From the NCBI GenBank assembly GCA_002011125.2, contig MTMF02000018.1:1-37034 (forward strand): a stretch of 37,034 nucleotides of DNA. The letters are read 5' to 3'. Below the pieces are notes generated by a model, which saw only the letters and a list, made by a program, of their open reading frames with translations, did not search any database and was not told the origin of the DNA. How positions within the stretch are numbered: the first letter of the stretch is position 1; each line of letters begins with the position of its first letter. This DNA comes from Candidatus Hydrothermarchaeum profundi. GTDB lineage: Archaea; Hydrothermarchaeota; Hydrothermarchaeia; Hydrothermarchaeales; Hydrothermarchaeaceae. The position numbers and the translations under genes are program-made. Of this stretch, positions 22,864 to 36,247 are shown one piece after another.

Positions 22864-23405
22864 ACATCACACTCCTCCCTCACTTTACACCACTTACATT
22901 CCCAACTCCATCGTGGACTTTCCCAATACTCTATAAAAAGTTTAATATCGTCAGTTGTATATGGGTCTGTAACCTCGAACTCTCTATAACTGTATGGACT
23001 GAAATACCATATATATGCCTTCTCCTTGCCAAGTAACCACATATACATCCTCAGTTGCATTTTGTCGTGTTCTCTCGGTGAATCAGGTACCTTCAAAGTA
23101 GTCTTTACTTCTACTAAATCTCCATCGACTATATCTGGAGTACCTGCTATAGTATAGTTACCAGCTCTCTTTTTATAAACTTTTTTCCTTCCACCAAGTA
23201 TAGATTCTATACCTCTATCAACAAGTACACCCAATAACACTCTTGGCTCTTTTAGTGTTTCTTTTACACTTTCCTCTGTAACACCTAGTTCAGCTTTACG
23301 TTTACAGTAGCACAACTGCTTAGCATGTATACTATTTTCTGTCATTTCGTAGTCTTTTCTTACTACAGTATCCGTATATATATCTAAAAATTCATCAAGT
23401 CTCAT
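22860..23405 (-). CDS. Cas4-like PD-(D/E)XK nuclease with Fe-S cysteines (181 aa)
   Basis: RecB/Cas4 fold signature: Cys32/Cys34 (LCYCKRKAEL), GTPD (Asp91), EVK (Glu99-Lys101) and QxxxY (Gln117, Tyr121), then C-terminal Cys170, Cys173 and Cys179 that with the first Cys would hold a 4Fe-4S cluster. Archaeal virus homologues are ssDNA exonucleases/endonucleases used in genome replication and recombination. No cas genes or CRISPR are nearby, so it is viral DNA metabolism. Start coupled by ATGA. Confidence 0.9.
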   Translation of the reverse strand: MRLDEFLDIYTDTVVRKDYEMTENSIHAKQLCYCKRKAELGVTEESVKETLKEPRVLLGVLVDRGIESILGGRKKVYKKRAGNYTIAGTPDIVDGDLVEVKTTLKVPDSPREHDKMQLRMYMWLLGKEKAYIWYFSPYSYREFEVTDPYTTDDIKLFIEYWESPRWSWECKWCKVREECDV

Positions 23406-23713
23406 TCTTCATCCCTCAACGCTTTCTCAACTATAGTGTGCAAAGCATACATTTTATCGTCTGGAATACCTATTGTACATACTGGTACATCTTTATTTAC
23501 TAAACGACCAGACTTTTTTACCGTATCACATATTCTATAGTCTCCCGGATATACATGCAAACCCTCGTTTATAGCATACTTTATACAAGAAATAAAATTA
23601 GCTATATCCGACTCTCTCTCTGGGTATATCACTATTCGTTTACACAACCGTCTTATTACACTATCATCCTCTATAACATACTCCCAAATACTTTCAACCT
23701 CAAATACCTTCAT
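23402..23713 (-). CDS. Hypothetical protein (103 aa)
   Basis: MKVFEVESIWEYVIEDDS..., alpha/beta, with three Cys that are not in a zinc pattern. GAGGTAGAGG precedes the ATG. It is absent from the duplicated copy of this region at 24.1 kb, showing that it was inserted after, or lost in, one copy. Function is unknown. Confidence 0.75.
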   Translation of the reverse strand: MKVFEVESIWEYVIEDDSVIRRLCKRIVIYPERESDIANFISCIKYAINEGLHVYPGDYRICDTVKKSGRLVNKDVPVCTIGIPDDKMYALHTIVEKALRDEE

Positions 23714-24072
23714 TCCTCTACCTCCTCATACAGTCTTACACCACACTTCTCGCAAAAGTTCATATACCTCTCGATTGGATGACCGTTAGGACATCTACTA
23801 GGTTCAACCTTTACAGCGTACATCATTGAACCACACTTGTAGCAATACCTATGCCTAATATATGTTTTATTACCACACTCAGGACATAGCCAATCGTATT
23901 TATCTTCTATATATATGCTCAATGCCATCATTAAAACACCCAGACTAATAGAAATAGCGAACACTAATCCGTTTTGCATGATACCACCTATAATAGCTCC
24001 TCCACCAAACGCCAATACTCCTAAACAAAATATAATGAATGGATGCCTCCACCACCAACTATTCCTAGTCAT
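23710..24072 (-). CDS. Membrane protein with double zinc ribbon, copy B (120 aa)
   Basis: Two N-terminal TM helices after RNSWWWRHP, then CPEC/CYKC and CPNGH/CEKC zinc knuckles in the cytoplasmic tail, ending EEVEE. The last ~60 residues are nearly identical to copy A at 24155, also at DNA level, while the TM region has diverged. The zinc part may bind the replication proteins or DNA and tether them to the membrane. Confidence 0.8.
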   Translation of the reverse strand: MTRNSWWWRHPFIIFCLGVLAFGGGAIIGGIMQNGLVFAISISLGVLMMALSIYIEDKYDWLCPECGNKTYIRHRYCYKCGSMMYAVKVEPSRCPNGHPIERYMNFCEKCGVRLYEEVEE

Positions 24073-24158
24073 TTTACGTCACCTCCTTCTATAATACTTA
24101 TCCACCATTTTCTTACTACAGTATCTGTATATATATCTAAAAATTCATCAAGTCTCAT
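24069..24158 (-). pseudogene. Duplicated 5' fragment of the Cas4-like gene (29 codons)
   Basis: MRLDEFLDIYTDTVVRK is identical to the start of the nuclease at 23405; the DNA differs at one base in ~49. After residue 17 the sequence switches to a stretch matching the end of the 44-aa ORF at 24539, read in another frame (WWISIIEGGDVK). It is a duplication scar. The short ORF could still be translated because the ribosome-binding site is kept. Confidence 0.8.
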
Positions 24159-24532
24159 TCCTCTACCTCCTCATACAGTCTTACACCACACTTCTCGCAA
24201 AAGTTCATATACCTCTCGATTGGATGACCGTTAGGACATCTACTAGGTTCAACCTTTACAGCGTACATCATTGAACCACACTTGTAGCAATACCTATGCC
24301 TAATATATGTTCTATAACCGCACTTAGGACATAGCCAATCGTATTCCATAACTATCCACGAAAACACAATGAACCCTCCTCCAATTAGCACCATTACAAC
24401 AAGTGGTATCATCGAGTTCTCTATACCACGCTTCTCAAGTACAAGACTTATAATAGTACCACTAGTAGCTAGCACTAATCCTATACAAAACACAATAGTC
24501 GGATGTCTCCACCACCAACTATTTCTAACCAT
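24155..24532 (-). CDS. Membrane protein with double zinc ribbon, copy A (125 aa)
   Basis: Paralogue of 23710-24072 with the same RNSWWWRHP start, two TM helices and four zinc-knuckle pairs in the tail. TM segments diverged, tails nearly identical. GGAGGTGATG precedes the ATG. Followed directly by the truncated Cas4 fragment, which marks the boundary of the duplication. Confidence 0.8.
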   Translation of the reverse strand: MVRNSWWWRHPTIVFCIGLVLATSGTIISLVLEKRGIENSMIPLVVMVLIGGGFIVFSWIVMEYDWLCPKCGYRTYIRHRYCYKCGSMMYAVKVEPSRCPNGHPIERYMNFCEKCGVRLYEEVEE

Positions 24533-24538
24533 TTTACA

Positions 24539-24673
24539 TCACCTCCTCCTGTAGTATTTATCCACCAACTCCCTCTGCCATTCACTCAAGTCTCCATATT
24601 TTAGTATTCTTGCTTTCAACAACTTATACAACCTTTTTGCTTCTTTTCTTTCGTCGTCAAATTCCAATACCAT
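24539..24673 (-). CDS. Small basic helical protein (44 aa)
   Basis: MVLEFDDERKEAKRLYK..., a charged single helix or helical hairpin ending VDKYYRRR. GGAGGTG lies 8 nt upstream. Its 3' end is the other breakpoint of the local duplication. Function is unknown. Confidence 0.65.
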   Translation of the reverse strand: MVLEFDDERKEAKRLYKLLKARILKYGDLSEWQRELVDKYYRRR

Positions 24674-27734: not shown

Positions 27735-27969
27735 ATAAAATCACCATCTTTCTATATATATTAGATATAATATATGTGTACCGGTGTACCGGTGTACCGT
27801 ATAGATACACCGGTACACCATTTTATTTTCATAATCTTATCAAATATAAATGAAATCATAGGCTCTATTTTAATAAATAAGGAAAATATTAAAATATTCG
27901 ACCACAATTTTTATTTCCAATATGCATTTAATATCACCCTAGTGTAAAAGTATAGTATTTATATTTACA
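27735..27969. other. 235-nt intergenic region between clamp and AbrB-type genes
   Basis: The largest non-coding internal gap. It holds the dyad/iteron element (27776-27819), two AT-rich TATA-like stretches (27753-27774) before the AbrB gene, and an AT-rich, gene-free part. It also holds a 12-codon mini-ORF with a perfect GGGTGAT at 27889-27927. A candidate origin or regulatory hub. Confidence 0.6.
27776..27819. repeat. Triple GTGTACCG iteron with inverted copy
   Basis: Three head-to-tail copies of GTGTACCG (27776-27799) are followed by ACACCGGTACACC (27807-27819), which pairs perfectly with GGTGTACCGGTGT (27783-27795). It is far richer in G+C than its surroundings. It lies 40-85 nt upstream of the AbrB start. 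Operator or initiator-binding site. Confidence 0.85.
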
Positions 27970-30255: not shown

Positions 30256-30447
30256 TCAACCACCTGACCTAACAGCAAATACCACCGTGTTACTTGCAAC
30301 AAGATAACTGGCAATCACATCGTACTTCATCAGAACCTCAACAGCCTTTTTTATATCTTCCAGTTCTTCACGCTTAAAATTGCGTATAAGTCTAACACTT
30401 ACAACCAGCTTACTTCCGTCCGAACTTACATTAATTCTCCTATCCAT
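30256..30447 (-). CDS. Hypothetical alpha/beta protein (63 aa)
   Basis: MDRRINVSSDGSKLVV..., beta-strand pair, helix (REELEDIKKAVEVLMKY), strand. Excellent GGAGGTGAT. Immediately downstream of the structured RNA at 30464-30623, which forms its leader if co-transcribed. Function is unknown. Confidence 0.75.
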   Translation of the reverse strand: MDRRINVSSDGSKLVVSVRLIRNFKREELEDIKKAVEVLMKYDVIASYLVASNTVVFAVRSGG

Positions 30448-30463
30448 TTATATCACCTCCTTT

Positions 30464-30623
30464 AGAGCTCTCCCCCACTACCAGACGTACACTCATGCTG
30501 GAACGGGAGGATTTCGCAAACCACCACTATTAGTAAAGCTCACTGACTATCACTCTGGTACAATCATACACTGCGTGGTTCACGCCAGCACCAAGTATAC
30601 ATCTGATAGCGCTTAGGGGCTCT
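30464..30623 (-). ncRNA. Candidate 160-nt structured RNA
   Basis: GC-rich compared with its surroundings and free of a good ORF. On the minus strand the ends pair: AGAGC/GCTCT, then CCCC/GGGG, then a 16-bp continuous helix (30588-30603 with 30479-30494), then UGCUGG/CCAGCA, closing a loop with a CGTG-AAC-CACG hairpin and a GG(T)TT-GCGA-AA(T)CC hairpin. No tRNA, SRP, RNase P or known ribozyme core seen. It sits 10 nt before the ribosome-binding site of the 63-aa gene: an independent RNA or a complex 5' leader. Confidence 0.75.
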
Positions 30624-30885
30624 ATGCACCTACCACTTCTCTATCAGTTCTTACCTCTACATCGGTAATATATATAACTTCAAGCAAAGCACAATACTTA
30701 ATAATCTTTACCACCTTCGGTCCAAACATACCCTGTAAGCGTTCATCATCTACAATCTTATCTATGTACAACACCCTAACATCGCTAGCATTTGAACGAT
30801 ACTCCTCTACACGTTTAGCTAAACCATCCATAGTAACATCCTTGACTACCTCATACTTTCTTTTTATTTTCTTTCCTACCAACAT
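30622..30885 (-). CDS. Hypothetical protein (87 aa)
   Basis: ATG 30885 (MLVGKKIKRKYEVV) with GGTGGTGAT upstream; the longer frame begins in the previous gene. Alpha/beta, basic start, ends TDREVVGA. The stop overlaps the start of the structured RNA. No known domain. Confidence 0.7.
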   Translation of the reverse strand: MLVGKKIKRKYEVVKDVTMDGLAKRVEEYRSNASDVRVLYIDKIVDDERLQGMFGPKVVKIIKYCALLEVIYITDVEVRTDREVVGA

Positions 30886-31090
30886 CTTTATCACCACCAT
30901 AAAACATATTAACCCTATACCTCCTCCAAAAAACCTCGAGTACAACCAAAGGACCAAATAGAACTATCATAGCACCCAATAACACCAGCAGTATTGACGA
31001 AACACCTAACCCGTATCCAACAATCATACCGCCGTATGTAAAGCAACACGAAACGCAAACAAACTCTGCATCACGTCTACTCAGACCCAC
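30851..31090 (-). CDS. Membrane protein (79 aa)
   Basis: GTG 31090 (MGLSRRDAEFVC) with GGTGG and GGTGAT upstream; alternative GTG 31099. Two TM helices with Gly-rich packing, then the basic tail KENKKKV. Function is unknown. Confidence 0.65.
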   Translation of the reverse strand: MGLSRRDAEFVCVSCCFTYGGMIVGYGLGVSSILLVLLGAMIVLFGPLVVLEVFWRRYRVNMFYGGDKDVGRKENKKKV

Positions 31091-31847: not shown

Positions 31848-31929
31848 CTAATACCTCCAACAGCTCATAATTACTAGCATAATTCCATCTCCAAACTTCT
31901 AACACTTCATCACACTTACACTTATTCAT
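31837..31929 (-). CDS. 30-aa peptide between ATPase and upstream gene
   Basis: MNKCKCDEVLEVWRWNYASN..., Cys-Lys-Cys start, overlapping the ends of both neighbours (ATGAATAA junction) with GGATGTG upstream. Fills an otherwise empty 74-nt gap. Possibly real, possibly chance. Confidence 0.45.
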   Translation of the reverse strand: MNKCKCDEVLEVWRWNYASNYELLEVLDEN

Positions 31930-32317
31930 ATGCAACACATCCTAACGTCTTCATTAACATAAGTCTATATCCACTTGGAGTCAGACTAGGACTTCTTTCA
32001 GAATACCTAACAAACATCCTAAATGCCTCATCTTCATCACTAGTTATAGTGCACAAAAACGGCAAACTCGGACCAGTAGGTGGTATCCATACCAGCATAT
32101 ACTTGTACACCACATCGTCAACTGCAATCTTTTTAGTACTTTTAGCACTCTCAATATCTACATAACCCTCAAGTATCTCCTCTAACCTAAGTATCATCTC
32201 TACAACCTGTCTCAACGCCTCAGGACCGCGACTCTCTAAAACTTTACCCATAGCATCATAGTTATCTGCAAAACTTCTCCTAGTATCAAACATACCTCCA
32301 CTCCATTCAACTTTCAT
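31922..32317 (-). CDS. Hypothetical protein (131 aa)
   Basis: ATG 32317 (MKVEWSGGMFDTR) with GGGGTGAT; the frame is open further upstream, but that part is the structured leader. Helical middle, aromatic-rich C-terminus (WIPPTGPSLPF). Its ribosome-binding site is partly paired in the proposed leader structure. Function is unknown. Confidence 0.7.
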   Translation of the reverse strand: MKVEWSGGMFDTRRSFADNYDAMGKVLESRGPEALRQVVEMILRLEEILEGYVDIESAKSTKKIAVDDVVYKYMLVWIPPTGPSLPFLCTITSDEDEAFRMFVRYSERSPSLTPSGYRLMLMKTLGCVAYE

Positions 32318-32319
32318 AT

Positions 32320-32411
32320 TATCACCCCATACCGCATGGGCAGCAGAAAAGGCACGGAGGGTGAATAAGTATGTATGGCACAATTCAACTGCCCATGTAT
32401 CGGCGGGTATA
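32320..32411 (-). promoter_or_regulatory. Structured 5' leader pairing with the ribosome-binding site
   Basis: On the minus strand UAUACCC pairs with GGGGUGAUA (the Shine-Dalgarno of the 131-aa gene), AUAC with GUAU, and AUGGGCAG with CUGCCCAU across a 45-nt loop. The element is GC-rich and non-coding. Such a fold would hide the ribosome-binding site until disrupted, as in riboswitches, thermosensors or protein-controlled leaders. Confidence 0.65.
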
Positions 32412-32420
32412 AAAAATAAA

Positions 32421-32440
32421 AGTCCAGCATTAGCTGGACT
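32421..32440 (-). terminator. Hairpin with following T tract
   Basis: AGTCCAGC-ATTA... perfect 8-bp stem with a 4-nt loop, overlapping the stop codon of the 99-aa gene, then TTTATTTTTTATA on the minus strand. Looks like an intrinsic terminator (or an attenuator) separating the SSB operon from the downstream structured leader. Confidence 0.7.
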
Positions 32441-32729
32441 TCGGAACTTTCTTAACTGCAATAGCCACTATACCATCTTTCTTGCTGGAAGCAGCTGCCT
32501 TTACCTCAATACCAGCCCTATCACAAGCCTCGACAAGCTTCACTTTAGAGTAGTAGTCCTTGTATTTTATATCGCTACCACTGTGAAACTCCATTATCTC
32601 TTCAAATGTAAAGTGGTATGTCCCGGGGCTGGTTACGTGCTCCTTGACATAGGAAACAAGCCCATCCATATCCCAAGCTCCTCTAGCCTTCAACTCAATT
32701 TTCAATTCGTCAGATACCTTCTTAGGCAT
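32430..32729 (-). CDS. Hypothetical protein following SSB gene (99 aa)
   Basis: MPKKVSDELKIELKARG..., charged helices then a strand pair (GIEVKAAASS...GIVAIAVKK). GGAGGTG lies upstream. It may be a winged-helix-like partner of the SSB, but this is not established. Ends at the terminator hairpin. Confidence 0.75.
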   Translation of the reverse strand: MPKKVSDELKIELKARGAWDMDGLVSYVKEHVTSPGTYHFTFEEIMEFHSGSDIKYKDYYSKVKLVEACDRAGIEVKAAASSKKDGIVAIAVKKVPKSS

Positions 32730-35645: not shown

Positions 35646-35751
35646 TTCTATCACCGTCCAAAAATCCATTAACATATCCATTAATCCAAGCCCTAAGCTC
35701 ATCAAATCCCATAGGCTCACTGTAAACATCTACACCTGCACTAGTATACAT
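35620..35751 (-). CDS. Overlapping 43-aa ORF
   Basis: MYTSAGVDVYSEPMGFDELR..., a soluble, codon-consistent frame bridging the 24-aa and RHH genes and overlapping each. Its ribosome-binding site is weak (GTGGGAC). Real only if the overlap is tolerated. Confidence 0.45.
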   Translation of the reverse strand: MYTSAGVDVYSEPMGFDELRAWINGYVNGFLDGDRNENSKVER

Positions 35752-35804
35752 GTCCCACGCCAGTACTTACATCCAGAAAAAACGCAAACCGCTTTATCAG
35801 TCAT
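35730..35804 (-). CDS. 24-aa Cys-containing peptide
   Basis: MTDKAVCVFSGCKYWRGTC..., three Cys; GGTGAT and ATGA coupling to the upstream zinc gene support translation. Its 3' part overlaps the 43-aa ORF. Confidence 0.45.
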   Translation of the reverse strand: MTDKAVCVFSGCKYWRGTCILVQV

Positions 35805-35926
35805 TCTCCATCACCAACCTCATAAGTAATTGGCTCACATTCGATACCACAATTAGGACACAAGCCTAGGACCGCATCCTCTGACTCCCATCCACAGCTT
35901 GGACATCGACCATAATTACCAGTCAT
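35801..35926 (-). CDS. Zinc-ribbon microprotein (41 aa)
   Basis: MTGNYGRCPSCGWES...LCPNCGIEC: CPSC and CPNC 15-20 residues apart form a compact zinc ribbon. GGGTGAC lies 6 nt upstream. Probable small regulatory or nucleic-acid-binding protein. Confidence 0.7.
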   Translation of the reverse strand: MTGNYGRCPSCGWESEDAVLGLCPNCGIECEPITYEVGDGE

Positions 35927-36159
35927 TCTCTGTCACCCAAAAAAGGTATCATATCATATATCCTATCCAACTCAAAACTCAGACCCACTAAAAATATCCT
36001 AACTTTCTCATCTCTGCACACATGAACCATGTCATTTATAGCATCTATTAGTATTCTTATCTCCTCAGCAACAACATCATTATCCCTAGCAATAGACTTC
36101 AACCTCTTATACGCTGACCACATTCTTTCAATCCTACTTTTGTCCATTTCTTCACTCAT
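35923..36159 (-). CDS. Hypothetical helical protein (78 aa)
   Basis: ATG 36159 (MSEEMDKSRIERM) is chosen over 36168 because GGAGG directly abuts the latter. All-helical, amphipathic. Its leader contains the hairpins at 36159-36218, with the Shine-Dalgarno in the internal loop. Function is unknown; control of its translation is likely. Confidence 0.7.
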   Translation of the reverse strand: MSEEMDKSRIERMWSAYKRLKSIARDNDVVAEEIRILIDAINDMVHVCRDEKVRIFLVGLSFELDRIYDMIPFLGDRE

Positions 36160-36218
36160 TTTTCTCATCCTCCTGTAGCCTGAGCATCTACTCAGGCTAT
36201 ATCAGTGAATGAGAAAAA
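36159..36218 (-). promoter_or_regulatory. Nested-hairpin leader around the ribosome-binding site
   Basis: Outer 10-bp arms (UUUUUCUCAU with AUGAGAAAAA) enclose an inner perfect 9-bp stem, UAGCCUGAG/CUCAGGCUA, with a 6-nt loop. CAGGAGG lies between the two 3' arms, and the outer 3' arm ends at the start codon. The fold could mask the site (thermosensor or protein-controlled). Confidence 0.75.
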
Positions 36219-36247
36219 CATATACAACAAAAAATATAAAAAAATAT

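Follow-up and report, generated by a model that had tools for sequence, protein, structure and literature searches.

Two strict bulge-helix-bulge elements directly ahead of genes in an archaeal virus-like contig, probable introns for host tRNA-splicing enzymes

The window analysed here is the whole stretch of 37,034 nucleotides, a contig that looks like a virus-like element and whose genes include a PCNA-like clamp, a Sak4-like ATPase, a helicase also present in haloviruses and a Dam-type methylase. The bin that holds it (2.19 Mb) is archaeal by 16S rRNA; the contig is linked to this host by binning only, with a similar GC (0.37 vs about 0.39-0.41 at three host loci). Two hairpins of the same design, E1 and E2, lie about 1.8 kb apart. 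Each occupies the gap between two genes, immediately upstream of a Shine-Dalgarno (SD) sequence and an ATG. Among the neighbouring genes, listed by hand, the median gap is 5.5 nt. The features of the two loci, with the evidence for them, are as follows:

30665..30678, minus strand: TATA-like stretch TTATATATATTA, about 45 nt upstream of E1 (sequence)
30622..30957, minus strand: 111-aa gene ahead of E1, without a family, whose TAG stop codon overlaps the base of the stem
30463..30624, minus strand: E1, a hairpin closed by a canonical hBHBh' motif (folding and scans)
30624-30619 / 30468-30463, minus strand: E1 outer helix, AGAGC/GCUCU plus a U-A extension (fold)
30618-30615 / 30475-30472, minus strand: E1 central helix of 4 bp, CCCU/GGGG (fold)
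30614-30612 (5' strand) and 30471-30469 (3' strand), minus strand: E1 bulges AAG and AGA, 3 nt each (fold)
30470..30612, minus strand: predicted E1 intron, 143 nt, with cuts at 30613/30612 and 30470/30469 (inferred from the cutting rule of PMC2738675)
30452..30460, minus strand: SD GGAGGTGAT of the gene behind E1 (sequence)
30256..30447, minus strand: 63-aa gene behind E1, matching phrog_11376 weakly (E 0.0016)
32323..32409, minus strand: E2, an 87-nt hairpin that likewise has a canonical hBHBh' closure (pairing and folding scans)
within E2, minus strand: outer helix UACCC/GGGUG, central helix GCCG/CGGU, inner helix of 10 bp (fold)
32400-32398 and 32330-32328, minus strand: E2 bulges AUA and AUG (fold)
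32329..32398, minus strand: predicted E2 intron, 70 nt, with cuts at 32399/32398 and 32329/32328 (inferred)
32321..32328, minus strand: SD GGGGTGAT of the gene behind E2, overlapping the outer helix on its 3' arm
31922..32317, minus strand: gene behind E2, 131 aa, ATG at 32317, no family
predicted exon junctions: CCCCTAA/AGCTCTAAAGG for E1 and CGCCGAT/GGGGTGATAATATG for E2
predicted circle junctions: GGGGGAG/GCGCTATC for E1 and GCGGTAT/ACATGGGC for E2

The pairing of the E1 ends is confirmed at 30464-30623, and reaches 30463-30624 with one extra closing pair. E1 is encoded on the minus strand, the strand of all genes here, and the minus-strand RNA folds with a minimum free energy of -67.3 kcal/mol (z -5.09), a value that none of 200 dinucleotide shuffles equalled. 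The plus strand gives a moderate fold only (-41.1, z -1.77, 9/200 shuffles as good), an asymmetry that arises because 12 of the 63 pairs are G-U on the minus strand; a plus-strand RNA, with its weaker fold and no bulge-helix-bulge (BHB), was rejected. Read from the dot-bracket, the minus-strand helices are 5(6) + 4 + 18 + 7 bp from the outside in, the inner helix being 18 bp uninterrupted in the fold and 20 bp by pairing alone. The long closing stem is the unusual part of E1, since the 85-nt interior taken alone folds no better than chance (z -1.37). GC is 0.48 in the E1 gap vs about 0.37 in the window. An earlier note on this DNA had described a GC-rich structured RNA here, its ends paired through 5 + 4 + 16 + 6 bp with small bulges, and had called for a randomised folding control; the structure withstands that control, and the helix count is right in substance. 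It overlooked the strand, the bulge-helix-bulge with its exact 3-4-3 geometry, and the other element, at 32323-32409.

Both E1 and E2 show two opposite 3-nt bulges with 4 bp between them, enclosed by outer and inner helices (hBHBh' geometry), and in both dot-brackets each strand runs from the 4-bp helix into a bulge on its 3' side, with the intron inside. Two 3-nt bulges around a 4-bp helix are the canonical target of EndA, the archaeal tRNA-splicing endonuclease (PMC4090602, PMC6379350, PMC7714728), which cleaves each bulge between its second and third nucleotide (PMC2738675). On sequence grounds E1 and E2 thus belong to the archaeal BHB introns: the helix closing a molecule for which the earlier note could name no RNA class carries the defining motif of that group. 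Taken alone, E2 is thermodynamically less extreme (z -2.6), and an Rfam search with it gave only weak chance matches, to neighbouring hairpins.

Two scans for BHBs were run, one by pairing and one by folding, and both demanded intron-type polarity. By folding both strands, the window yields no strict BHB other than E1 and E2, and none at all on the plus strand. The pairing scan gave about 25 matches to the bare pattern, mostly with inner helices of 6-8 bp; E1 is the clear extreme among them, and most of the others lie outside any minimum-energy fold. Across 23 dinucleotide shuffles of the minus strand a single BHB appeared, with helices of just 4 and 3 bp. Control virus DNA of about 247 kb together with two related-host contigs likewise yielded one BHB, a 30-nt hairpin within a coding sequence. 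The six viruses (HRTV-5, ATV, psiM2, PSV, HATV-3 and HCTV-5, some partial) serve as controls and not as a survey because they were chosen by hand.

We consider that E1, and E2 with it, are probably archaeal-type introns that lie within gene leaders or spacers of an archaeal virus-like element, the splicing being deduced from the motif. Host EndA would cut once in each bulge, and the host ligase RtcB would join the flanks, so that predicted excision shortens the gap from 174 to 31 nt at E1 and from 112 to 42 nt at E2, leaving an untranslated spacer of either length. The released RNAs of 143 and 70 nt would be circularised, like other archaeal BHB introns. The likeliest consequence would be that the downstream gene's mRNA passes through a maturation or control step, while a circular RNA, highly base-paired and resistant to exonucleases, arises as a by-product or second product; the virus might gain in translation spacing or control, in mRNA processing, or from the stable circle. 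The presence of a second, similarly built insert suggests that host tRNA-splicing enzymes are used by an archaeal virus on its own messages.

Transcription starting about 25 nt downstream of the TATA-like stretch would place E1 within a 5' leader. The earlier proposal of a functional RNA is supported, and E1 is probably a leader element. The E2 gap extends between a stop codon at 32430 and the start codon at 32317. A terminator-like hairpin (AGTCCAGC...GCTGGACT, 32410-32445, minus strand) with a T-rich tail marks where the gene 32729..32430 ends and immediately precedes E2; should it terminate transcription, E2 needs readthrough or a promoter of its own. Both predicted introns carry an anti-SD-like word, AUCCUCCC within 30470-30612 and UCACCCUCC within 32329-32398 (minus strand), and these could base-pair with the SD of the gene that follows, although with n = 2 chance is possible. 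Simple unmasking of the SD by splicing is not supported, as modelled SD accessibility shows no clear rise. Fusion of the flanking reading frames by splicing was rejected, because the upstream stop (TAG at E1, TAA at E2) precedes the 5' cut.

The bin, to which the contig is tied by binning only, encodes one RtcB and a single EndA of 169 aa; PDB relatives of this EndA over nearly its full length include that of M. jannaschii (1A79). A single EndA gene of such length implies the alpha4 form. Relaxed BHBs are removed efficiently only by heteromeric or composite forms of EndA (PMC6379350), and the strictness of both motifs therefore fits the implied alpha4 enzyme.

RNase III splits phage T7 mRNA into units with defined ends, and EndA could act in a similar way here, cutting the BHBs to segment a polycistronic viral mRNA whose flanks stay unligated and whose excised piece is waste. 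In its favour, both elements are intercistronic and lie directly before an SD, and EndA already frees rRNAs from their precursor in this manner (PMC7714728). We nevertheless find it unlikely, as archaeal EndA products are usually ligated (PMC7714728, PMC12558985), the bin has an RtcB, and an insert of 143 nt exceeds the need of a cut site. Still less likely is a structured cis-regulatory leader that binds a protein or ligand and acts on translation or stability, its bulges resembling a BHB by accident. Such a leader would account for a strong fold right before an SD, and a plain hairpin (AGCCTGAG...CTCAGGCT, 36169-36247) likewise directly precedes the GGAGG of another gene, 36168..35923. However, when shuffled sequence was folded, none of 4,047 pairs of consecutive helix interruptions had the 3-4-3 arrangement in either polarity, yet it occurs exactly and twice here.

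We regard as very improbable an independent viral non-coding or packaging RNA with its own promoter. The E1 insert of 143 nt is very stable and GC-richer than its surroundings, and the TATA-like stretch lies upstream of it; but the stem shares nucleotides with the upstream stop codon and is followed at once by the SD, the interior folds no better than chance, and no Rfam 15 covariance model matched E1 at the gathering threshold or at E = 10, so that Rfam families, packaging RNAs included, were rejected. Of the roles that the earlier note had offered, that of an independent viral RNA survives only for the excised, perhaps circular, intron; that of a packaging RNA finds no support in Rfam or in a position between genes, beside others of replication type. 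A tRNA intron was dismissed, E1 being flanked by the end of an open reading frame and an SD, and ARAGORN finding no tRNA or tmRNA in the window; the 5-bp/7-nt hairpin that would be left after splicing is there because any canonical BHB leaves one.

Introns spliced by EndA in protein-coding messages are very rare, and a 2020 report names just two, both of them cellular, namely cbf5 and a 5' UTR case of its own (PMC7714728). The latter, in the 5' UTR of HVO_1309 of Haloferax volcanii, is a strict hBHBh' intron cut by EndA in vitro, for which a circular RNA was found, and HVO_1309 is down-regulated on endA repression (PMC7714728). It resembles E1 and E2 in having the strict motif in an untranslated leader and a host EndA, but it belongs to a cellular gene and is a 46-nt intron inside a 192-nt UTR, whereas ours are two elements of 143 and 70 nt on a virus-like contig, immediately before the SD, with splicing predicted. 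The cbf5 pre-mRNA intron of Desulfurococcales and Sulfolobales (PMC2738675) is also a BHB-type intron in the mRNA of a protein gene; unlike the strict, non-coding E1 and E2, it lies within the coding sequence, has mostly relaxed motifs and is served by a heteromeric enzyme. Archaeal tRNA introns and the processing stems of 16S and 23S rRNA share the 3-4-3 motif, EndA and circular products, but the flanks of E1 and E2 are mRNA. In the openly licensed literature, one mention of putative archaeal-virus introns was found (PMC2738675). These introns, proposed in genes of an archaeal virus by Peng et al. as cited there, are 12 bp long and inside coding genes, their splicing is putative, and that citing account describes no comparable long BHB element.

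The setting of E1 and E2, in non-coding gaps of a virus-like genome and twice over, is the unusual feature. If our reading is true, a virus relies on tRNA splicing for its own mRNAs, archaea have a source of viral circular RNA, and a strict-BHB scan of non-coding gaps offers a route to more cases from sequence alone. A wider proposition, which we consider less likely than not, is that archaeal viruses place BHB introns before their own genes, so that host tRNA splicing matures the mRNAs and frees circular non-coding RNAs that act in infection. RtcB is annotated in the haloviruses HRTV-5 (L037, 38677-40038) and HCTV-5 (L042, 22390-23850); the parts of these two genomes that were scanned held no strict BHB. 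E1 and E2 may bear on why some haloviruses such as these carry an RtcB of their own.

Searches for relatives of the contig (blastn and tblastn against phages and plasmids, IMG/VR, and up to 394 archaeal genomes) returned only generic helicase and ATPase homologues, and in those same searches the E1 and E2 sequences and most neighbouring proteins were without relatives. The contig with the best helicase match (G075:C69) had no other gene in common in the part searched, and its single BHB-like match has a 1-bp outer helix. No CRISPR spacer matched the contig in the half that was searched.

Elsewhere in the window, an AT-rich gap of 235 nt (27735-27969, 25% GC) between the MazE/AbrB-like and PCNA-like genes contains tandem palindromic units of the GGTGTACC type that form a 17-bp hairpin (z about -4 on both strands), and it looks like a replication origin or operator. 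A recent tandem duplication at 23355-24567 (191 nt at 98%, plus 122 nt at 75%) has produced a near-identical pair of zinc-ribbon membrane proteins; a 56-nt repeat at 96% reaches into the neighbouring gene. Finally, an apparent 193-nt gap at 35730-35922 (minus strand) encodes, by eye, a zinc-ribbon-like peptide, CPSCGW...CPNCG, and is therefore probably an unlisted small gene.
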